Positions 9,461 to 60,335 of a stretch of 64,000 bases of DNA are shown one piece after another. The first letter of the stretch is position 1. Every line of letters begins with the position of its first letter. Position numbers and translations under genes: made by a program. A model generated the notes under the pieces. The model saw only the letters and a list, made by a program, of their open reading frames with translations, had not been told where the DNA came from and did no database searches. This stretch comes from Umboniibacter marinipuniceus (lineage in GTDB: Bacteria; Pseudomonadota; Gammaproteobacteria; Pseudomonadales; DSM-25080): assembly GCF_003688415.1 (NCBI RefSeq), contig NZ_REFJ01000005.1, forward strand, positions 179,890 through 243,889, read 5' to 3'.

Positions 9461-9510
9461 TCAGCTCTCGTTAGCTCTCGTTAGCTCTCGTTAGCTCTCG
9501 TTAGCTCTCG
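9461..9510. repeat. Tandem repeat, five 10-bp units
   Basis: The unit TTAGCTCTCG occurs four times exactly at 9471-9510, with one variant copy (TCAGCTCTCG) at 9461-9470. It starts one base after the ttcA stop and runs straight into a second array of different period that shares the first six bases, TTAGCT. Confidence 0.9.
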
Positions 9511-9561
9511 TTAGCTATTGGGCGCCGTTAGCTATTGGGCGCCGTTAGCTATTGGGCGCGG
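9511..9561. repeat. Tandem repeat, three 17-bp units
   Basis: The unit TTAGCTATTGGGCGCCG is present at 9511-9527 and 9528-9544, with a one-base variant at 9545-9561. It adjoins the 10-bp array with no spacer. The shared TTAGCT head suggests one array grew out of the other by replication slippage. Confidence 0.9.
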
Positions 9562-9840
9562 TTGAGCGGGTCATGCCGTTCGGTGCTGTTAACGGCTTAG
9601 CGAGCAATAGAGCAGGCAGTTAGGGCCAACAGCTTGCGCTATTTATCACTTCGTAGATTCCACGGTTGCCAAAATCTATCATTTTGGCGATAAAAGACTA
9701 TTAACTTCGACACTTTCTTGATTCAGCCTGCGCAGCCAATAATAGTTAGAAAATTGCGGCGCGAGCTTTAACGGAACAAGAATCCTGCTAACCTAAATGA
9801 CACCGTGGGTTTCCCGCTTTGTTAATAAGATGCGAGTACT
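9562..9840. other. Intergenic region upstream of the M3 peptidase gene
   Basis: No ORF with a plausible ribosome-binding site is seen here. It should carry the promoter for the peptidase gene, but no convincing -35/-10 pair can be named. Together with the repeat arrays it forms a 381-bp gene-free gap after ttcA. Confidence 0.35.
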
Positions 9841-34113: not shown

Positions 34114-34222
<109 letters not shown>

Positions 34223-34336: not shown

Positions 34337-36490
34337 ATGTCATACCAAGTTCTCGCGCGAAAATACCGCCCAGCTAATTTCCATGAAACCGTGGGACAAG
34401 AGCATGTGTTGCGGGCGTTAATTAACGCGCTCGATAATAACCGTTTGCATCATGCGTATCTCTTTACGGGCACTCGCGGTGTCGGCAAAACCACCATCGC
34501 GAGAATTCTTGCGAAATGCCTTAACTGCGAACGTGGCGTGAGCTCCAAACCATGTGGCGAGTGTAATGCCTGTTTAGACATTGCCGCGGGCCGATTCATT
34601 GATCTGATCGAAGTGGATGCGGCGAGCAGAACCAAGGTGGAAGATACCCGCGAGTTACTCGACAATATTCAGTACGCACCTACCGCGGGCCGCTTTAAAG
34701 TGTATTTGATTGATGAGGTCCACATGCTCTCTAATCATAGTTTCAATGCACTATTGAAAACACTTGAGGAGCCGCCTCCGCACGTAAAGTTTCTCTTGGC
34801 TACTACTGACCCTCAGAAGTTACCGATTACCGTTCTGTCACGTTGCCTACAGCTTTCGCTCAAGAATATGATCCCCGAGCGAATCGTGAGTCATTTGGAA
34901 ACGGTGTTGAGCAGCGAAGCCTTGAGTTATGAAGAAGAGGCTTTGTGGTCAATTGCTCAAGCGGCCGATGGGAGTATGCGTGACGCGCTTTCATTAACGG
35001 ATCAGGCTATTGCATTTGGTGATGGCAGCGTACAGAGCGTAGACGTGAATGCCATGCTGGGTACTATTGATCGGGGTGTTATTCAGCAGCTGCTACAGTT
35101 ACTCATTGATGGTGAGCGCAAAGCGCTCATGAGTTTCGTTGCACAACTTTCTCAGCAAGCTCCCGACTTTTCCCGACTTCTCAGCGATTTAACCCTCGCT
35201 TTGCATAAGCTCGCCATGTTACAGGTGGTACCAGATTACCCATTACCGGTTGCAATGGACGCCAAGGCATTTGCTGAATTAGCTCAGCGAGTGACCGCGG
35301 AAGATGTACAGCTGTTCTATCAGATAGGCGTTCAGTCGCTCGCTGAGCTTCGGCGCTCCCCTGACGAAATGGTCGGCTTTGAAATGGTTTTGCTGAGAAT
35401 GCTAGCGTTCCGGCCGCAGGGGGTGATCGATATCGAGCATGCTCCAGATGAGCTTCCGGAAGTGCCAACAAAAAAGACGCTACCCCAGTCGGATGAAGTA
35501 GCATCGACTGGGGCCCAAGTCGAAAAAGCTGACATTGAGGTTGCGCATCTATCCAGTAAAGCCGCTAAGCCGCTGGATGAGCGTAGTGAATCGGCTGCTG
35601 ACGATCAGCCTCCCTGGGACGTGGATGGACTACCTGCATCAGCCTCTACGGCGTCCAAAGAGGTGTCCACAAACAATGCAGTGATAGAGCCTTCATCCTC
35701 GCTAGCGGAAGTAACAGCCACCGAAACCGTGCCCACAAACAATGCAGTGATTGATCCTGCGTCCTCGCTAGTGGAAGCAACGGCCACCGAAGCCGGGTCC
35801 ATAAACAATGCAGTGATTGAGCCAGCGTCCTCGTTAGTGGAAGCAACGGCCACCGAAGCCGGGTCCACAAGTATTGAAGTGCCAGAAGCGGTATCAGAAG
35901 CAATTACCGAGTCGGTGCATGATTTCGCACAGGGGGTTAATGAGCCACCCATCGATCATAAAGCGACTATGCCATCAACGGCGGGAACCGACGTTGCCGC
36001 GGCAGCGCTCATAGATTCTGCGATTCCCGCTGATAGCCCTAAACCGACCGAAACAACAGTGGGTCACGTGGCGCGAGGGTTTAGCTTAGACTCGTTAACT
36101 CAGGCGAATTTTCCCGAGTTCGCGTTGCGACTCAGAATGATTGGACCTGCAGGGAGTGCGCTGCATCAGATGTCGCTGCAGAGTGTTGAGGGGAATCAGC
36201 TAAACTTAGTCATGGATAGCGCGCAATCCATGCTGCTAAAAGCGCGTCAGCACGAGCAACTGACCGAGGCTTTTTCGGTTGCACTGGGTGAGACCGTAAT
36301 ACTGAATATTGTAGAGGGTGATCCAGGGTTACTCACTGCATCGTTACGTAGACTGGAGATTGATACTCGACGCAGAGAGCAGGCGATAGCCGAGCTTAAT
36401 AGTGATCCGGTCATCCAGTTTTTGAATCATGAAATGGGTGCCAAGGTTTTACCACACACGGTTGTTTCCCTGGCTCCAGAGGAGTTTTAA
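34337..36490 (+). CDS. dnaX: DNA polymerase III tau/gamma subunit
   Basis: The 717-residue clamp-loader ATPase. Walker A is FTGTRGVGKTTIARILAK near residue 45, the zinc module is CLNCERG..CGECNAC, Walker B is VYLIDEVHMLS near 126, then LLKTLEEPP and sensor-1 TTDPQKLP. Domains I-III end near residue 370; a low-complexity linker (380-590) and the tau-specific C-terminal domain follow. A slippery A AAA AAG at 35470-35476 with a downstream hairpin predicts -1 frameshifting to a 386-residue gamma form. The linker contains three 22-residue repeats. AGGAAGG precedes the ATG. It starts an operon with ybaB and recR; ybaB begins directly after its stop. Confidence 0.97.
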   Translation: MSYQVLARKYRPANFHETVGQEHVLRALINALDNNRLHHAYLFTGTRGVGKTTIARILAKCLNCERGVSSKPCGECNACLDIAAGRFIDLIEVDAASRTKVEDTRELLDNIQYAPTAGRFKVYLIDEVHMLSNHSFNALLKTLEEPPPHVKFLLATTDPQKLPITVLSRCLQLSLKNMIPERIVSHLETVLSSEALSYEEEALWSIAQAADGSMRDALSLTDQAIAFGDGSVQSVDVNAMLGTIDRGVIQQLLQLLIDGERKALMSFVAQLSQQAPDFSRLLSDLTLALHKLAMLQVVPDYPLPVAMDAKAFAELAQRVTAEDVQLFYQIGVQSLAELRRSPDEMVGFEMVLLRMLAFRPQGVIDIEHAPDELPEVPTKKTLPQSDEVASTGAQVEKADIEVAHLSSKAAKPLDERSESAADDQPPWDVDGLPASASTASKEVSTNNAVIEPSSSLAEVTATETVPTNNAVIDPASSLVEATATEAGSINNAVIEPASSLVEATATEAGSTSIEVPEAVSEAITESVHDFAQGVNEPPIDHKATMPSTAGTDVAAAALIDSAIPADSPKPTETTVGHVARGFSLDSLTQANFPEFALRLRMIGPAGSALHQMSLQSVEGNQLNLVMDSAQSMLLKARQHEQLTEAFSVALGETVILNIVEGDPGLLTASLRRLEIDTRRREQAIAELNSDPVIQFLNHEMGAKVLPHTVVSLAPEEF
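35458..35513 (+). promoter_or_regulatory. Programmed -1 ribosomal frameshift signal in dnaX
   Basis: The heptamer A AAA AAG (35470-35476) is in the correct frame (codons ACA AAA AAG, residues 378-380). A 6-nt spacer leads to a perfect 9-bp stem, CCCCAGTCG (35483-35491) with CGACTGGGG (35505-35513), loop 13 nt. A Shine-Dalgarno-like GGAAG sits 7 nt upstream. The -1 frame reads six codons (DATPVG) to TGA at 35494-35496. This is the same slippery heptamer and layout as E. coli dnaX. Confidence 0.9.
35669..35866 (+). repeat. Three in-frame 66-bp repeats in the tau linker
   Basis: Three tandem units start at 35669, 35735 and 35801 and encode 22-residue blocks beginning [TI]NNAVI[ED]P and ending in TATE followed by two to three small residues. 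Units 2 and 3 are nearly identical; a remnant (TSIEVPE) follows. They lie after the frameshift site, so only tau carries them. Confidence 0.88.
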
Positions 36491-45778: not shown

Positions 45779-45904
45779 ATTGCGTACTCATTAACCGTGG
45801 CACCAGAATATCCTGCCTACTCAACGCCGACTCATTTCCTTGTGATCATACAGCCCCGCGCTGAGAATTTTGCTATGATAGCGCCATCTATTGAGAGTAA
45901 TTGC

Positions 45905-48900
45905 ATGCAAGACTTTTCCCAGTGGCTGCGCGTAGATGTAGCCAAGTTTCGTTCGCTAACGAACAAAATTAAGAATCTTCAACGTCAGAAGAAGCCGGTT
46001 GAACGGTTGTCAGCTGAGCGTGATGAACTGGTAATTTCGGCGCCAACCCGCTTGCAGGAAAAGCTGAATCAGCTACCTAAGCCACGGTTTGACGATGCCC
46101 TACCAATTAGTGAGAAACGCGAACAGATTGCCGCGCTGATTCGTGACAATCAGGTGGTAGTGGTCGCCGGCGAAACGGGCTCAGGAAAGACGACCCAGCT
46201 GCCGAAAATTTGTCTTAGTTTAGGGCTTGGCGCTCGCGGGCTTATCGGCCATACGCAGCCGCGACGTTTAGCGGCAAGCTCCGTCGCCAGTCGAATTGCC
46301 GAGGAGCTTGGGCAAACACTTGGCGATAGCGTAGGCTATCAGGTTCGATTCAATGATCAGAGCGGTCCCAATACCGCTATTAAGCTGATGACCGATGGTA
46401 TTCTGTTGGCGGAGATGGCGCGAGACCGGTGGCTTTCTCGCTACGATGTCATCATTATCGACGAGGCTCACGAACGAAGCCTCAATATCGACTTTCTACT
46501 TGGCTACCTTAAACAGTTGCTGCCGAAACGTCCTGACCTAAAAGTGGTGATTACCTCAGCAACGATTGACGTTGAACGTTTTAGTGAGCATTTCGGGGGG
46601 GCTCCTGTTATCGAAGTATCGGGGCGAAGTTTCCCGGTGGACATTGAGTACCGCCCACTCATTGCCGATGAGAGTGAGGCTGACCTCAGTCTCTATGAAG
46701 GCATCTGCGAAGCGGTAGAACATCTGATCAACCTGGAAAAGCGTGGCGATTCACCGGCTAAGGGTGATGTATTGGTGTTCTTGCCGGGTGAGCGGGAAAT
46801 TCGCGAAACGCATAAGCAACTTAAGGCTAGGCAATTCGCTCATACGGAGGTTCTACCGTTATATGCGCGGCTCTCTAGTGCCGAGCAAAACAAAGTCTTC
46901 GCGCCTCATCGTGGTAGACGAATTGTCCTAGCGACTAACGTAGCCGAGACGTCGTTAACCGTGCCAGGTATTGGCTATGTGATTGATCCAGGCCTTGCTC
47001 GTCTCAGTCGGTACAGTTATCGCTCGAAGGTCCAGCGCTTGCCGGTAGAGGCTATCTCCCAGGCTAGCGCTAATCAGCGGGCCGGTCGCTGTGGGCGACT
47101 CGCGCATGGATTGTGTATTCGCCTCTACAGTGAAGAAGATTTCACTAGCCGAGTAGCGTTCACTGAACCTGAGATTATGCGCAGCAACCTCTCCGCCGTT
47201 ATTCTGCAAATGCTCAACCTGAAGCTTGGTGATATCAAGCACTTTCCCTTCGTTAATGCGCCGGATAGCCGCTTTATCAATGACGGTTTCAAGCGCTTAG
47301 AGGAGATCGCAGCGGTCAGTTCAGCAGGCGAGCTAACCGCACTGGGTAGGAAACTGTCGAAACTACCCATTGATCCGCACCTGGCGAGGATGCTATTCAC
47401 CGCACAGGAAAAGAACGCGTTGAGGGAAGTGCTGATTATTGTCAGCGCTATTGCGGCCCAAGACCCGCGTGAACGACCTGCGGATAAGAAGGCGCAGGCC
47501 GATCAGAAACACGCTCAGTGGCATCATGATAACTCCGATTTCATGGCGTACGTTAATCTTTGGGATGGCTACCATGAGTGGTCAGAGGAGTTGAGTCAGG
47601 GGCAGCTGCGAAAGCGGTGTAAGCAGGAGTATCTCTCATATATTCGCATGCGTGAATGGCGCGACCTCTATACTCAGATCCAAGGCGTCTGCAAGGAAAT
47701 AGGCTGGAAGAAAAATCATGAACCAGCGAATTACCAGGATATTCACGTCGCGTTAGCGTCGGGCCTACTGGGGCAAGTTGCCATGCGCGACGGCAAGGAT
47801 GAATACCTTGGGGCACGACAACGACGCTTCGTTATCTTTCCCGGCTCCTCAATGCGAAAGAAGAAACCGAACTGGATCTTGAGCGGACAGCTGCTCGAGA
47901 CCTCGCAGGTGTTCGCTCATCAGGTTGCGATGATTGAGCCGGAATGGCTACTTCCTGTGGCGAAGCATTTGGTCAAATATCATTACTCAGAGCCCTACTA
48001 TTCTGCAAAGCAGGGGAGGGTAATGGCATTCGAACGAATCTCGCTCTACGGTTTAAATCTGATAGACAAAAACCGCGTGGGCTTCGGCGATAAAGATCCT
48101 GTGGTGGCCCGTGAACTCTTTATTCGCGGCTGCCTAGTTGATGGTGAGTATCGATCAAAAGCGAAGTTTTATCAGCATAATTCAGCGCTTCGAAAACAGA
48201 TTGAAACGGCGGAGGAAAAGACCCGTCGCCGTGATTTACTCGTGGATGAAGAAGCCATTTTTAATTTTTACCACGAACGTATTCCCGCGGAGATTTGTGA
48301 TTTAGTCAGCTTTGAAACGTGGCGAAAAACGGTTGAAGTAGAACATCCAAAACGGTTGTTTATGAGCCAAGCGCATCTTGCTCAGCGTGATGTTGTGGTG
48401 GATGGCGCGCAATTTCCTACGCAGATAAAGCTGGCCGGCGCGGAGTTCAAATTACGCTATCGCTTTGAGCCAGGACATGCTGCGGATGGCGTTAGCGTAG
48501 TCATTCCGCTGCAATTTCTTGAGCGAGTTCAAACATCAGAGCTTGAGTGGTTGGTTCCAGGGCTGTTAAGGGATAAGTGCATTGCACTTGTTAAAGCTCT
48601 CCCTAAGGCGAAGCGTAAAGCGTTTGTGCCGGTCCCCGATTTCGTAGACCGCGTCATGCCTCGACTTCGAAATGGTGATCGCTCTCTCACTCAAGCGCTA
48701 TCCGACGAGCTCTCTTACGTCAGTAATGTCCGCTTCGAGCCGGCTGACTGGCAAGAGGCTACTCTGGATGACTTCTATCGGCTCAATATTGTGGTAGTGG
48801 ACGAGCGCAAGAAACGATTGGCAATGGGGCGCGATCTGAATGAACTTCGTCAGCAGCTGAAGGCGAAGATTCAAGCAGCCTTGGCAGCGGTACAAAGTGA

Positions 48901-49780
48901 CGAGGTTGATACCGTTGAGTCGATTGTTGAATGGAACTTCGGTGATCTGCCAAGAGAGCGAATGATTGCCAAGTCTGGTGTTAAGATTACCGCCTACCCG
49001 GCGCTTGTGGATGAGGGAGAGTCAACCTCATTGCAGCTCTTTGACCGCCGCGAAGAAGCGCAACTCCGAGGCGTGCGGGGATTGGCAAGGCTAGCACTTC
49101 TCCAGCTGCCTACTCAGGCACGTGATATTCGTAAAGAAGTATTCCGAGACAATAAGATCAAGTTGGCGCTGGCGGCTATTTGCCCGCGTGATCAACTCAT
49201 TGAAGATTTGCTCATGGTGGCCGCAAGAGAAGTCTTTCAATTGCGAGACTGGCCCACTAGTCAAGAGGGCTTCAACCAGCGAATTAACGCCCATCGGAAA
49301 GAATTTTTACTTTATTGTCGTGAGCTGGCTAACTTTTTGACCGAGTTGTTGACCGAGTATGCAGCACTCCGAGGAGTATTGCGGAAAACCAATAGTTTAG
49401 CCCTTACCTTCGCCATTAGTGACATTAAGAATCAATGGGCTGAACTATTTGGCCCCGGTTTCTTATGGCGCACCCCAAGAAGTTGGCTGGAACAGTATCC
49501 GCGGTACCTGCAAGCCAGTTTTAAACGGCTTGACCAAGTTCAGGGGAAGGTGCAGAAAGATCGACTGGCGATGGCGATGGTAGATGAATATTTACCTGAC
49601 GTAATTCGCAAATTGAGTGCCGAGGAAGGGCTTATGTGGGAATCCGAAGCTGCAATGGTTGATTTTCGTTTTATGATGGAGGAATGGCGTATTCAGCTCT
49701 ATGCTCAACCGATGAAGACAATTGTGTCGGTTTCGGAGAAGCGTGTTAAGCAAGCTTGGAGTGCGCTTAGTCAACAATAA
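45905..49780 (+). CDS. hrpA: ATP-dependent RNA helicase HrpA
   Basis: A 1291-residue DEAH helicase. The ATG at 45905 (MQDFSQWLRVDVAK) gives the family N-terminus; the longer frame to 45797 runs back through a -10-like TATGAT at 45874. Motif I is VVAGETGSGKTTQLPK, motif II IIIDEAHERSLN, motif III ITSATID, motif VI SQASANQRAGRCGRL. The helicase-associated and OB-fold regions follow, then the long HrpA-specific C-terminus (DUF3418), ending in AWSALSQQ. HrpA resolves stalled or collided ribosomes and takes part in mRNA processing. The RiPP operon starts 62 bp downstream. Confidence 0.96.
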   Translation: MQDFSQWLRVDVAKFRSLTNKIKNLQRQKKPVERLSAERDELVISAPTRLQEKLNQLPKPRFDDALPISEKREQIAALIRDNQVVVVAGETGSGKTTQLPKICLSLGLGARGLIGHTQPRRLAASSVASRIAEELGQTLGDSVGYQVRFNDQSGPNTAIKLMTDGILLAEMARDRWLSRYDVIIIDEAHERSLNIDFLLGYLKQLLPKRPDLKVVITSATIDVERFSEHFGGAPVIEVSGRSFPVDIEYRPLIADESEADLSLYEGICEAVEHLINLEKRGDSPAKGDVLVFLPGEREIRETHKQLKARQFAHTEVLPLYARLSSAEQNKVFAPHRGRRIVLATNVAETSLTVPGIGYVIDPGLARLSRYSYRSKVQRLPVEAISQASANQRAGRCGRLAHGLCIRLYSEEDFTSRVAFTEPEIMRSNLSAVILQMLNLKLGDIKHFPFVNAPDSRFINDGFKRLEEIAAVSSAGELTALGRKLSKLPIDPHLARMLFTAQEKNALREVLIIVSAIAAQDPRERPADKKAQADQKHAQWHHDNSDFMAYVNLWDGYHEWSEELSQGQLRKRCKQEYLSYIRMREWRDLYTQIQGVCKEIGWKKNHEPANYQDIHVALASGLLGQVAMRDGKDEYLGARQRRFVIFPGSSMRKKKPNWILSGQLLETSQVFAHQVAMIEPEWLLPVAKHLVKYHYSEPYYSAKQGRVMAFERISLYGLNLIDKNRVGFGDKDPVVARELFIRGCLVDGEYRSKAKFYQHNSALRKQIETAEEKTRRRDLLVDEEAIFNFYHERIPAEICDLVSFETWRKTVEVEHPKRLFMSQAHLAQRDVVVDGAQFPTQIKLAGAEFKLRYRFEPGHAADGVSVVIPLQFLERVQTSELEWLVPGLLRDKCIALVKALPKAKRKAFVPVPDFVDRVMPRLRNGDRSLTQALSDELSYVSNVRFEPADWQEATLDDFYRLNIVVVDERKKRLAMGRDLNELRQQLKAKIQAALAAVQSDEVDTVESIVEWNFGDLPRERMIAKSGVKITAYPALVDEGESTSLQLFDRREEAQLRGVRGLARLALLQLPTQARDIRKEVFRDNKIKLALAAICPRDQLIEDLLMVAAREVFQLRDWPTSQEGFNQRINAHRKEFLLYCRELANFLTELLTEYAALRGVLRKTNSLALTFAISDIKNQWAELFGPGFLWRTPRSWLEQYPRYLQASFKRLDQVQGKVQKDRLAMAMVDEYLPDVIRKLSAEEGLMWESEAAMVDFRFMMEEWRIQLYAQPMKTIVSVSEKRVKQAWSALSQQ

Positions 49781-49842
49781 CAACCGGTGCGCAGCTGCTT
49801 GCCTGGGTTGGCGCTTCATTACTAATTTTGGGAGTAAACCAA

Positions 49843-50265
49843 ATGTCTAATAAAATTTTACCCGCTGTTGCGGCATTGAGCGCAGCCTTGGCTGCTGTAT
49901 CTTCTGCAGACCTTGAAGCTACACCTTTTTCAGCAGAGAACCTGGATAATGGTTATTTTGTCAACTTCGCTGAAGGTAGTTGTGGTGAAGGTAAGTGTGG
50001 CGGCGAAGGTGCTGATGATTCAGAGGGAAGCTGTGGCGAAGGCAACTGCGGCGGTGAAGGCGCTGATGATTCAGAGGGTAGCTGTGGCGAAGGTAAGTGC
50101 GGCGGCGAAGGCGCTGATGATTCAGAAGGTAGCTGTGGCGAAGGTAAGTGCGGCGGCGAAGGCGCTGATGATTCAGAAGGTAGCTGCGGCGAAGGCAAGT
50201 GTGGCGGCGAAGGCGCTGATGATTCAGAAGGTAGTTGCGGCGAAGGCAAGTGTGGCGGTGCCTAA
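49843..50265 (+). CDS. HvfA-like cysteine-repeat RiPP precursor
   Basis: A 140-residue precursor. ATG 49843 has GGGAG upstream. Residues 1-22 form a signal peptide (ILPAVAALSAALAAVSSA). PFSAENLDNGYFVNFA follows, the conserved N-terminal element of HvfA-type proteins. From residue 44 there are five 17-residue repeats, EGSCGEGKCGGEGADDS, and a final EGSCGEGKCGGA; repeat 2 has EGNCG. Twelve cysteines in all, six in EG[KN]CG motifs. In Haemophilus HvfA, Cys in EGKCG motifs are converted to copper-binding oxazolone/thioamide pairs by the MNIO HvfB with HvfC, and homologues of both are encoded next. Modification here is inferred. Confidence 0.9.
   Translation: MSNKILPAVAALSAALAAVSSADLEATPFSAENLDNGYFVNFAEGSCGEGKCGGEGADDSEGSCGEGNCGGEGADDSEGSCGEGKCGGEGADDSEGSCGEGKCGGEGADDSEGSCGEGKCGGEGADDSEGSCGEGKCGGA
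49972..50262 (+). repeat. 51-bp tandem repeats in the RiPP precursor gene
   Basis: Five 51-bp units from 49972 to 50226, then a 36-bp partial unit to 50262. Units differ mainly at synonymous third positions (AGC/AGT, TGT/TGC, GGC/GGT) and one Lys-to-Asn change in unit 2. Such near-identity allows gain or loss of whole modules by slippage or recombination without breaking the frame. Confidence 0.92.
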
Positions 50266-50268
50266 GCA

Positions 50269-51108
50269 TTGACCAAGTTTGCTCAAGTGGATGGTGTAGG
50301 CCTTGGTCTGCGCCGTTCACTGATAACCCAGTTGCAGGCTCCGGGAGGCTGTGACGGCATTGATTTTTTCGAGTTAGCGCCGGAAAATTGGATTAATTTG
50401 GGTGGCCGCTACGCCGATAAACTTCGGTGGTTCAGTGATCGTTTCCCTTTTGTCTGCCATGGGTTGTCTTTGAACCTAGGGGGGCAAGACCCTTTGGATT
50501 TCAAACTGCTAGCTGATATAAAGGCATTTTTGCGTACCCATAACGTGAAGTGTTACTCAGAGCACCTCAGTTTTTGTGGTCACCAAGGCCTCCTGTATGA
50601 TTTGCTCCCAATTCCTTTTACTCAAGAAGCCGTTGTTCACGTTGCCGAGCGTATTCGCGTGGTTCAGGATTATTTAGAACAGCCAATTGCGGTGGAGAAT
50701 ATCTCTTACTATTTGGCACCCAGCCAAGAGCTGTCTGAGCTAGCATTTATTAACGCGGTGTTACAGGAAGCTAATTGCCAACTCATGCTAGATATCAACA
50801 ATGTCTATGTGAATAGTGTGAATCATTGCTATGACGCAATTGATTTCTTGGCGCAAATACCTGGTGAGCGGATTGCCTATGCTCATATTGCCGGTCATGC
50901 TGACGAGGCTGAAGATCTTAAGGTAGATACCCACGGAGCGCCGTTGATTGAACCAGTGCTCAATTTGGCACAGCACTGTTATGGTCAATTCGGATCAATT
51001 CCCACAGTGCTTGAACGCGATTTCAATTTCCCTCCGCTTGCCGAGTTAAAGTTGGAAATAAGCGCCGTAAGGCGTATTCAGGAGAAGGCGCTTGTCGAAC
51101 TTTCGTGA
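50269..51108 (+). CDS. MNIO (DUF692) RiPP-modifying enzyme, HvfB-like
   Basis: A 279-residue multinuclear non-heme iron-dependent oxidative enzyme. [10 protein letters not shown] and [17 protein letters not shown] open the TIM barrel. Candidate iron ligands sit in conserved motifs: H64 ([10 protein letters not shown]), H99 (YSEHLSF), E143 (VENISYYL), D175 ([13 protein letters not shown]), H206 (AHIAGH), D220/H222 (DTHG) and E249 (LERDFN). In HvfB and MbnB these bind two or three irons that oxidise cysteine. No ATG is available; TTG 50269, three bases past the precursor stop, is taken as start, which should hold enzyme levels well below precursor levels. Confidence 0.92.
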
Positions 51109-51814
51109 ACTTCAGGAAGCGCTGGCGGCCAGTGTTAGATTCAAGGTCACTCATGAGGATCTTGATGTTGAACCACGCCGATTGGCAATCTATCAACGGT
51201 TGGTGTTCAACAATCTATTTGGCTTACTAAGTGGTGGCTATAAGAAACTTCGTCGCGCTATGGGCGATGAAGCGTTTCGTCAGCTAGTTCGGTCATTTCT
51301 GGAGTCTGGTGTATCGAAGACACCATACTTTGCTGAAATTTCCGGGGAATTTCTGGAATGGTTTCTAGCGCGTGAGGCGCCTAAATGGCAGCATGAACTC
51401 GCCGAATACGAGCGGGCTGGTATTGTGATTGACGTTGACACCATGGACTGGCCTACCGCTGAAGAGATGGAGAGCCGCCCTCAGGGCGTTCATTTTTCGC
51501 CCGCGATTGCATTATTTTCCTTCGAGTACGCCATTTACGAGGCGGATGATGGCTTAGCTCCACCTAAGCAACCAACCTATATTCTACTCTACCGAAACCC
51601 CCATAATAAGTTGCGATACAAACTACTAAATGCCGCTAGCTTCAGCCTTATGGCACTGCTACTACAGGAGCAAGATCTCAACTCGGCGCTAGCAACCCTG
51701 GCATTAACCATGTCTACCGATATTTCGCATATCCAGTCGCCAGCGCTAAGTCTGTTAGCAGCGTTACAAAGAGAAGGCGCGGTGGTCTCCTTTCCTAACA
51801 TCTCTGCGTTGTGA
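51092..51814 (+). CDS. DUF2063 RiPP partner protein, HvfC-like
   Basis: A 240-residue protein beginning at TTG 51092 with AGGAGAAGG about 7 nt upstream; it overlaps the MNIO gene by 17 nt. The N-terminal half is the DUF2063 DNA-binding-like domain, a helical bundle with [42 protein letters not shown] and [14 protein letters not shown]. The C-terminal half holds [19 protein letters not shown]. In RiPP systems this family binds the precursor and is needed by the MNIO. No hvfD-like DoxX gene follows. Confidence 0.9.
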
Positions 51815-53066: not shown

Positions 53067-54161
53067 ATGGAAAGATCTTTGGATAGTCGTTTAGTTATTG
53101 TGAGTGCTTTGCTAGCACTGACCATGAGTGCCGTTACAAGCGCACAAGACTCCGAAATAGAGTCATCTGCCGTTGCTGCTCAGTCAGAGTCTACTACTGA
53201 GACTGAAGCGGAACTCCCTGCCGTCACCTACGAAAGCTATGGTAGTGATGTTGGTTTTGTTCAAACTCAACCAGTCCCCTACGACGGTGATCCCTTTGAG
53301 GACTTGAATCGTGCCATGTTGACATTCAATGATGTGGCTGACCGATACCTCCTGTTACCCATTGTTACTGGATACAAATACATTACCCCGGACCCCGTAG
53401 AGCGTAGCGTCGATAACATTTTTGCTAACTTAGACGATATCGGTAGTGCGGCGAACTCAATTCTGCAGCTGAAGATTGGTGATGCGGGGGTTTACGCGGG
53501 CAGATTTTTAACCAACACCACAATTGGTGTTTTAGGAATCTGGGATGTTGCCAGTGAATTAGGCATGCGCCGTTTAGAGGGCGAGGACTTTGGTCAGACT
53601 CTGGGCTATTACGGAGTACCAGAAGGACCGTACCTGATGCTGCCATTCTATGGGCCGAGCACACTTCGCGACGCCCCAGCTCGCTATGTTGATAGTTTCG
53701 TGGACTACACAAGTTATGTTGATCACGTGCCTACCCGTAATTCGTTGATGGGCGTTGAAGCCGTAAATGTCCGAAGTCAGCTTATTCAGGCTGAAGCATT
53801 TATCACCGGTGATCGCTATACCTTTATCCGTGATGCCTATCTGCAGCGTCGGCAGTACCTAGTTCTTGATGGGCAGATGCCCGATGACGAAGAATTTGAT
53901 GAGTTTGGTGGCTTCGGTTCAGCTGGTGAAAGCTATGGTGGTGAAAGCTATGGTGGTGAAAGCTATGGTGGTGAAAGCTATGGTGGTGAAAGCTATGGTG
54001 GTGAAAGCTATGGTGGTGAAAGCTACGGTGGTGACGAGGATAGCGATCCCAATCGCGACAATCTATCAGGCAGTGCCGACGATCAGATTGATCCGCCGTT
54101 GAATGAGACGGATGGCCGTTCTGATAACGATGACAAGCTACCCCAAGATAGTGAGTTCTAA
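53067..54161 (+). CDS. mlaA: MlaA (VacJ) family outer-membrane phospholipid-transport protein
   Basis: A 364-residue protein. GDPFEDLNRAMLTFNDVADRY near residue 73, then a helical core and MLPFYGPSTLRDAPARYVDSF near 190, identify MlaA, which removes mislocalised phospholipid from the outer leaflet. The signal sequence (ALLALTMSAVTSA) ends without a lipobox Cys, so this copy seems not to be a lipoprotein. A poorly ordered acidic stretch precedes the core. After the core, seven GESYG repeats (53925-54029) and an acidic Asp/Asn-rich tail extend the protein. No mlaBCDEF genes adjoin it. An in-frame TTG at 53079 is an alternative start. Confidence 0.88.
   Translation: MERSLDSRLVIVSALLALTMSAVTSAQDSEIESSAVAAQSESTTETEAELPAVTYESYGSDVGFVQTQPVPYDGDPFEDLNRAMLTFNDVADRYLLLPIVTGYKYITPDPVERSVDNIFANLDDIGSAANSILQLKIGDAGVYAGRFLTNTTIGVLGIWDVASELGMRRLEGEDFGQTLGYYGVPEGPYLMLPFYGPSTLRDAPARYVDSFVDYTSYVDHVPTRNSLMGVEAVNVRSQLIQAEAFITGDRYTFIRDAYLQRRQYLVLDGQMPDDEEFDEFGGFGSAGESYGGESYGGESYGGESYGGESYGGESYGGESYGGDEDSDPNRDNLSGSADDQIDPPLNETDGRSDNDDKLPQDSEF
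53925..54029 (+). repeat. Seven 15-bp repeats encoding GESYG
   Basis: GGTGAAAGCTATGGT is repeated six times exactly, and a seventh copy has TAC for TAT. The copies stay in frame within the C-terminal extension of mlaA and are recent by their identity. Confidence 0.93.
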
Positions 54162-54229: not shown

Positions 54230-55426
54230 ATGACCAACGTTGACACTCAGCCAAATCGATACACGTTACTCATCATTGAAGATGATGATATCGTTCGTGA
54301 CAGTCTATCGCTCTATTTTTCGGACTGTGGCTACAACGTGGTTGAAGCTGAAGATGGTGAAATCGGTTTAGCACGCTTTGCCACGCATTCACCGGATGTT
54401 GTCATTAGTGACCTTAAGATGCCGTACTTAGACGGCCTCTCGGTGCTCGAAGCGATTTCAGAGCAAGGGCGAGAGGTGCCGTTTATTGTGGTTTCTGGGG
54501 CGGGAAAGATGCACGAGGCTGTCAGGGCGTTACGCCTTGGCGCACATGACTACTTTGTTAAGCCCATTGCGGACATGGAAATCCTGGAGCTATCTATTGA
54601 AAGAGCGATAGAACAACGCTCTCTCAAGGCTCAAAATCTTCGCTACCGATCGGAACTTGAAAGTGCGAACGAAGAGCTTAACCGCAGCTTAACGACACTG
54701 CGTCAAGACCATAAAGCAGCGTTACAGATTCAGCGGGCAATGCTGCCCGAGCAGAACCTCCGCATTGGCGAAGGCTCGATCAGTCATTTCTGGCGGCCTT
54801 CGTTATTTGTTAGTGGCGATTTTCTCGATTGCTTTGATGTTGAGAATCGATTCACCGTATTCTATCTCACGGATGTTTCAGGCCACGGCGCACCGGCAGC
54901 GTTTGTGACGGTTTTTCTCAAACATCTGTCGACCACATTATTAAAGGCACATCGCACTCACAAGGGACAAAGGCGGCGTTTTAATACACCCAATGATATT
55001 CTTGAGGAAATCAACCGCCAACTGATTTCGGCGAAGCTAGACCGCCATGCTACGATGTTCTTTGGGATTCTGGATAGGCGTAGAAGCACACTTCACTATG
55101 CCGTGGCGGGGCATCTGCCACTGCCAATTCTCTGTCGTGCGGGCAAAGCTGTGTATTTGCAAGGTAACGGCATGCCACTTGGCTTATTGGATGATAATGA
55201 GTGGCGAAACTACAGTGTGAAGCTCCAACAGGGTGATCAAATAGTAGTCTGTTCCGACGGTGTGTTTGAACTGATGAAAAATGGTGAATTGGTTGAAAAT
55301 GAATTGCAATTACTCAAAGTTGTAGAAAAATCACAATCAGTAGATGAAATTGTGGAAAATTTAGGCTTAAATGAAACCAATGATGTACCGGATGACATCG
55401 CTATTTTGTTGTTTCAATTAGGCTAA
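54230..55426 (+). CDS. Response regulator with PP2C/SpoIIE phosphatase output
   Basis: A 398-residue two-domain regulator. The receiver (residues about 10-125) has IIEDDD, the phospho-acceptor Asp in VVISDLKMPYLDGL, and the Lys in DYFVKPIADME. A coiled-coil linker (ELESANEELNRSLTTLRQD) leads to a PP2C domain with FLDCFDVENRFTVFYLTDVSGHGAPAAFVTVFL and VVCSDGVFEL and a final NDVPDDIAILLF. It would dephosphorylate an anti-anti-sigma protein. A STAS-domain gene follows by 4 nt, matching HsbR-HsbA of Pseudomonas. Confidence 0.9.
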   Translation: MTNVDTQPNRYTLLIIEDDDIVRDSLSLYFSDCGYNVVEAEDGEIGLARFATHSPDVVISDLKMPYLDGLSVLEAISEQGREVPFIVVSGAGKMHEAVRALRLGAHDYFVKPIADMEILELSIERAIEQRSLKAQNLRYRSELESANEELNRSLTTLRQDHKAALQIQRAMLPEQNLRIGEGSISHFWRPSLFVSGDFLDCFDVENRFTVFYLTDVSGHGAPAAFVTVFLKHLSTTLLKAHRTHKGQRRRFNTPNDILEEINRQLISAKLDRHATMFFGILDRRRSTLHYAVAGHLPLPILCRAGKAVYLQGNGMPLGLLDDNEWRNYSVKLQQGDQIVVCSDGVFELMKNGELVENELQLLKVVEKSQSVDEIVENLGLNETNDVPDDIAILLFQLG

Positions 55427-55430
55427 TCGA

Positions 55431-55919
55431 ATGAATACAGGCAAACTGCTATCCGCCAACACCAATGACTCGTACGTAGTTAAATTGGTCGGCGATGTCC
55501 GAGTTCCACTATGTAAAACTATTGATGAATGCGTTGAGACGATTTGCGCAGAACCTTTTAAACATCTCACCATTGACTTTAGCGAAGCAGAAAACGCTGA
55601 TTCAACCACGTTAGGCTTAATGGCAAAACTTTGTATTCGGGCAAAATCTCTTTGTGGCGTGATGCCGGTTATCTACACCCCTCACGACGATATGACCCGA
55701 CTTCTCCACTCTATGGGTTTTGAGAATATTTGCATCCTGAGTGGCTCACAACCCACTGACTCCGCTAGTTTGTCCCCCATAGAATGGGAAAGCGAGTGCT
55801 GCGATGACGAGACTGCCAAGAATCACGTACTGGAAGCACACAGAACTCTGATGACCCTCTGCGAGGGTAATGAAAGTCAGTTTTCTGATTTAGTAAAACA
55901 TCTTGAAGCAGAGCTATAG
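55431..55919 (+). CDS. STAS-domain anti-sigma factor antagonist, HsbA-like
   Basis: A 162-residue protein. The STAS fold spans about 12-100, with VVKLVGDVRVPLCKTIDECV and the conserved phospho-site loop IDFSEAENADSTTLGLMAKL (Ser/Thr near residue 57-59). A C-terminal helical region of 50 residues is extra compared with SpoIIAA. The upstream gene encodes a PP2C phosphatase, so this is its likely substrate in a partner switch controlling motility or biofilm sigma activity. No anti-sigma kinase gene is near. Confidence 0.85.
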   Translation: MNTGKLLSANTNDSYVVKLVGDVRVPLCKTIDECVETICAEPFKHLTIDFSEAENADSTTLGLMAKLCIRAKSLCGVMPVIYTPHDDMTRLLHSMGFENICILSGSQPTDSASLSPIEWESECCDDETAKNHVLEAHRTLMTLCEGNESQFSDLVKHLEAEL

Positions 55920-60230: not shown

Positions 60231-60335
60231 CGCAGACCGCAGACCGCAGACCGCAGACCGCAGACCGCAGACTGCAGACCTCAGACCTCAGACCTCAGAC
60301 CTCAGACCTCAGACCTCAGACCTCAGACCTCAGAT
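60231..60335. repeat. Heptamer tandem array (CGCAGAC / CTCAGAC), 15 units
   Basis: Six CGCAGAC units, one TGCAGAC, seven CTCAGAC and a final CTCAGAT make 105 bp of 7-bp repeats. It begins right after the gltX terminator and runs into the 3' end of recD: the recD stop codon at 60323-60325 and its last codons are array bases. Confidence 0.95.

Follow-up and report, generated by a model that had tools for sequence, protein, structure and literature searches.

An HvfABC-type RiPP operon with a lysine-poor, acidic precursor core behind hrpA in Umboniibacter marinipuniceus

Gene content and class of the operon

Within the 64,000-nucleotide stretch of the Umboniibacter marinipuniceus genome analysed here (hereafter the window), we identified three adjoining genes on the forward strand: an hvfA-type precursor (49843..50265; 140 aa, ATG start, 12 Cys), an hvfB-type MNIO (DUF692, MbnB_TglH_ChrH; 50269..51108; 279 aa, TTG start), and an hvfC-type partner comprising DUF2063 and an NGO1945 C-terminal domain (51092..51814; 240 aa, TTG start). 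The open frames bear out the three gene positions given in a preliminary description of this DNA, together with the 3-nt spacing between hvfA and hvfB and the overlap of hvfB with hvfC, which amounts to 17 nt. In the alignment with the congener G001, the TTG of hvfB falls at an ATG start. Upstream on the same strand lies hrpA (45797..49780), encoding a long DEAH-box RNA helicase with DUF3418 (Pfam, 596 bits), Helicase_C, OB_NTP_bind and HA2 domains; the intervening gap (49781..49842, forward strand; 62 nt) carries a ribosome-binding site, GGGAG. The operon is also present in two congeners, in one of which the contig ends inside hvfB, and was found in 3 out of 3 genomes of the family. A genome-wide search returned one MNIO and one precursor, both at this locus.

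All three products exceed curated NCBI cut-offs, namely NF050137 for the precursor (NCBIfam, HvfA-repeat; 80.2 bits, cut-off 19.5), NF003818 for the MNIO (HvfB family; 405.6 bits, cut-off 360) and NF050145 for the partner (HvfC family; 165.2 bits, cut-off 142), which places the genes in the EGKCG oxazolin/captophorin RiPP class and argues against a chance identification. The precursor passes this broader domain model and scores below the narrow HvfA equivalog NF050188 (66.3 bits, cut-off 95). The MNIO was likewise below the equivalog models for BufB (240.6 bits, cut-off 310) and for MbnB, the methanobactin enzyme (TIGR04159; 34.7 bits, cut-off 325). Bufferins Buf1 and Buf2 resemble the present system in their MNIO, DUF2063 partner, Sec signal and thiooxazole (the last two predicted here), but differ in both the BufB model and the DUF2282 precursor (PF10048), for which no match was found anywhere in the Umboniibacter genome.

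The structural affinities of the enzymes point the same way. The MNIO matches PF05114 (320.7 bits) and has 3BWW as its nearest solved structure (E=8.8e-73), while hvfC matches PF09836 and PF22106, both above cut-off, with 3DEE as its nearest structure (E=1.2e-9); these are the two structures named for the EGKCG captophorin class (PMC13097082). Relatives were collected with an alignment query, which returned 80; a genome-contig scan with a single MNIO query returned none. Among 57 MNIOs from the order, residues R15, R16, D251 and F252 of the window MNIO are invariant and correspond by motif to Arg15, Arg16, Asp249 (the catalytic base) and Phe250 of Fontimonas FonB. Also invariant are D220, H222, N177/N178 and other conserved H, E and D residues; with numbering transferred by alignment through 3BWW, D220, H222 and N177 or N178 probably represent the site-3 residues D242, H244 and N175 of HvfB. 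The ligand residues, whose divergence the preliminary description had held would count against its reading, are thus conserved. Taken together with the leader motif and the related loci described below, these observations uphold the assignment to an HvfABC-type RiPP operon, and we consider it very probable that the locus directs production of a copper-binding RiPP of the EGKCG class (oxazolin/captophorin).

Several further features were identified elsewhere in the window. Downstream of the operon are a gene for an MlaA-type lipoprotein (53067-54161; PF04333, 234 bits), whose C-terminal tail consists of about seven GGESY repeats encoded by a 15-bp unit with 98% matches (53924-54034), and a response regulator/SpoIIE phosphatase gene followed by a STAS-domain gene (54230-55919), likely a partner-switching pair. 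Tandem repeats were also found at 9463-9563 (AGCTCTCGTT, 5.4 copies, adjoining a 17-bp unit in 3.2 copies), at 35665-35870 (a 66-bp unit in 3.1 copies within a 717-aa frame) and at 60233-60334 (the heptamer CAGACCT, 14.6 copies, 96% matches, lying largely in the space between two convergent open frames). A bacterial small SRP RNA lies at 34120-34216 (RF00169, 72.6 bits).

The precursor and its lysine-poor core

The hvfA product begins with an N-terminus that is Sec-like by sequence, followed by the leader motif TPFSAENLDNGY and the repeat core. This leader is an instance of a shared motif, PFxAxxLxxGY, observed in 60 of 64 loci of the order. The core (49972..50258, forward strand) comprises a 51-bp tandem unit in 5.6 copies with 92% matches (Tandem Repeats Finder, score 455), corresponding to a 17-residue unit, EGSCG-EG[K/N]CG-GEGADDS, with six Cys pairs. 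All 12 Cys fall within EGxCG pentamers (6 EGSCG, 5 EGKCG, 1 EGNCG). The six EG[KN]CG motifs counted previously are therefore present, five with Lys and one with Asn, but the EGSCG pentamer before each had been left out of a total of 12 candidate sites. Nor do the paired cysteines (SCGEGKCG) mark a departure from known layouts, as had been proposed, given that the published 17-residue unit of Buf_EGKCG/oxazolin type 1 precursors (PMC12452194) also possesses two EGxCG pentamers; those systems likewise have a PME-type 1 partner and a signal peptide, the latter putative in the window precursor. A beta-helix has been proposed for such 17-residue repeats (PMC12452194); an AlphaFold model of the window precursor alone (mean pLDDT 42.5, pTM 0.15) is too poor to judge this fold.

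The composition of the core, rather than its architecture, sets the genus apart. Position 3 of the pentamer in the window precursor is always Ser in the first pentamer of each repeat and Lys or Asn in the second, such that Lys is absent from 7 of 12 sites; in congener G001, Ser, Asn and Ala occur there in either pentamer. Across the three Umboniibacter precursors Lys precedes Cys at 11 of 35 sites (the others being 17 Ser, 6 Asn and 1 Ala), compared with 518 of 551 across 64 other loci from the order. The Umboniibacter cores, with a pI of 4.05, are also the three lowest of 67 (median 7.68). Lys occupied 77% of sites in 61 further precursors taken from named genome records, among which EGSCG recurs in Alcanivorax/Alloalcanivorax, Lysobacter and a gammaproteobacterial MAG. 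We accordingly rejected the possibility that EGSCG is unique to Umboniibacter: L062 repeats EGSCGEGKCG, and L093, L120 and L124-L126 carry several EGSCG. The MAG precursor, L124, is an extreme Ser-Cys case, with 12 EGSCG among its 16 pentamers. The recurrence of EGSCG in these genera makes the Umboniibacter precursor a variation within a known kind; as judged from the sequences, the Ser variant is recurrent, and what is particular to the genus is a fully acidic, lysine-depleted core.

The closest characterised system is mmrABC of Microbulbifer (bulbicupramide; PMC12538549), which likewise consists of precursor, MNIO and DUF2063 genes only, has no DoxX and encodes paired EGKCG repeats, and whose MNIO is the best named match (62% identical). 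Its operon also lies behind hrpA in the genomes examined. Microbulbifer cores, however, are Lys-rich with EGKCG throughout (pI 8.75 at L073), as opposed to the EGSCG/EGKCG pentamers and acidic linkers of the window precursor. The oxazolin operon hvfABC(X) of Haemophilus influenzae (PMC13419390) shares an HvfA with EGKCG pairs and a signal region (putative in the window precursor), as well as HvfB and HvfC that pass the same enzyme models, but includes a DoxX-like gene and possesses three AEGKCGEGKCG motifs, whereas the window operon lacks DoxX and its precursor has 12 pentamers, six of them with Ser ahead of Cys. Fontimonas fonABC (fontiphorin, a captophorin; PMC13097082) is a minimal three-gene cluster of the same 5-thiooxazole class, differing in a Lys-Cys core of seven sites.

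The hrpA neighbourhood and doxX

The operon had been described as free-standing, which is not quite the case, since hvfA starts 62 nt beyond the end of hrpA in the same orientation, and this linkage recurs at many related loci. Of 128 related precursor loci, 44 have a co-oriented hrpA no more than 1.5 kb upstream (38 of them no more than 500 nt); these span about ten families and include Microbulbifer, Cellvibrio, Porticoccus, Exilibacterium, Alloalcanivorax and several other families of the order (for example L053, L073, L076, L106 and L118). Mapped onto a quick MNIO tree, the hrpA label changes 4 times versus a shuffled mean of 22.9, so the arrangement has mostly been passed on by descent. 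The linkage can also be loosened, as indicated by seven loci with an HrpA match not counted as close upstream. Neither PMC12452194 nor PMC12538549 uses the words hrpA or helicase in its main text. The promoter and terminator scan was at chance level, with no promoter above chance in the 62-nt gap. Our guess is that transcription probably reads through, at least in part, from hrpA into the operon. A functional tie between hrpA and the operon is possible; shared ancestry is the simpler reading.

Loci linked to hrpA hardly ever carry doxX as well. Among 119 judgeable loci, 41 have hrpA only, 46 DoxX only, 31 neither and 1 both, so that doxX occurs at only one of the 42 judgeable hrpA-linked loci (Fisher p 4.5e-11, a statistic that ignores relatedness). 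The preliminary description correctly noted the lack of an adjacent DoxX gene, the only one of the genome being on another contig, but this scarcely constitutes a difference: a doxX match lies close to the precursor match in only about 25 of 62 genomes of the order, and mmrABC and fonABC are minimal too. As absence is this common, we rejected the idea that the missing doxX reflects a loss of function. At a separate group of loci (L027, L049, L061, L063, L067 and L070-L072) an EGKCG precursor adjoins doxX and no MNIO gene was found; some of the genomes concerned (G123, G252, G291) carry the MNIO at another locus.

Predicted modification and role of the peptide

The preliminary description had assumed an oxazolone/thioamide product, which has been superseded, since two groups have reassigned the oxazolin modification to 5-thiooxazole. 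Alkylation-assisted HMBC revealed 5-thiooxazoles in oxazolin, fontiphorin and gonophorin (PMC13097082), and the original oxazolin group accepted the reassignment, showing also that HvfC is required for the active mixed-valent diiron state (PMC13419390). By analogy with these characterised relatives, HvfC would bind both HvfB and the HvfA signal/leader region, and HvfB, through a mixed-valent diiron centre and O2, would oxidise EGxCG cysteines to 5-thiooxazoles with loss of 4 H per site (a maximum of 48 H over the 12 sites). Once modified, the peptide would be exported by Sec, lose its signal peptide and bind Cu(I) in the periplasm. Both cysteine modification and copper binding in Umboniibacter are plausible predictions from homology.

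Which cysteines are modified depends on the tolerance of the enzyme at position 3. In FonBC substrates the Lys preceding Cys can be exchanged for Ala, Arg or Thr, though not for Phe or Glu, and the residue after Cys must be small (PMC13097082), making Ser and Asn plausible at position 3; as that study's text reports neither of these two, modification of EGSCG is a prediction, and our guess is that EGKCG and EGSCG cysteines are both modified. Alternatively, only the 6 EGKCG/EGNCG cysteines might be converted and those of EGSCG stay thiols, so that each repeat forms a mixed thiol/thiooxazole site. The strict placement of Ser in the first pentamer and Lys or Asn in the second would allow the two to be treated differently, and the published class is defined by Lys-Cys (PMC13097082); nevertheless, the substitutions tolerated by FonBC, the frequency of EGSCG in other genera, including its 12 sites in L124, and the presence of Ser, Asn and Ala in either pentamer of G001 render this arrangement unlikely. 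Two wider readings are equally tentative. In the first, the enzyme would handle the EGSCG and EGKCG sites differently, so that thiol ligands alternate with thiooxazole ones along an acidic scaffold. In the second, the hrpA-hvfABC linkage, conserved in many families of the order, would stem from co-expression of helicase and peptide or from a functional tie between them.

The peptide might also serve mainly against another stress, such as other metals or oxidants, instead of copper. Roles beyond copper have been argued for the family (PMC12452194), and the study of Microbulbifer was hesitant to assign its peptide a role in copper protection (PMC12538549). Neither a copper-responsive promoter nor a neighbouring copper gene was found in the window, the copper ATPase of the genome being on another contig, and the acidic core (pI 4.05) could conceivably also bind divalent cations. 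Against this, the 5-thiooxazole peptides of the class tested in the studies cited here bind copper (PMC13097082, PMC12538549), and we regard a principal role outside copper as doubtful.

A methanobactin-like oxazolone/thioamide peptide is highly improbable: this structure was the original 2024 assignment for oxazolin and persists in NCBIfam names, but it conflicts with the reassignment accepted by its own authors (PMC13097082, PMC13419390) and with the wide separation of HvfB and MbnB scores for the enzyme. Compared with congener G002, hvfA retains 97% protein identity and 12 of 12 Cys at a pS of 0.645, with a dN/dS of 0.022 that denotes strong purifying selection, although repeat homogenisation may lower this value somewhat. 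Such constraint, along with the lack of stops and the presence of the operon in all three family genomes, leaves next to no room for the most remote of the alternatives, a decayed or disused operon, despite the failure to detect the mmr product in laboratory cultures of Microbulbifer (PMC12538549).

Apart from its precursor and its hrpA neighbourhood, the system is one among thousands. It is conserved and belongs to a known class of copper-binding RiPPs, its genus-specific part being the lysine-poor, acidic core. The locus draws attention to a conserved hrpA neighbourhood that the two main texts do not mention. It also offers a natural substrate in which most sites have another residue in place of the Lys before Cys, with the enzyme residues unchanged. 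This provides a ready-made means of gauging the stringency of HvfB-type enzymes, for which the L124 precursor may perhaps prove the better substrate.
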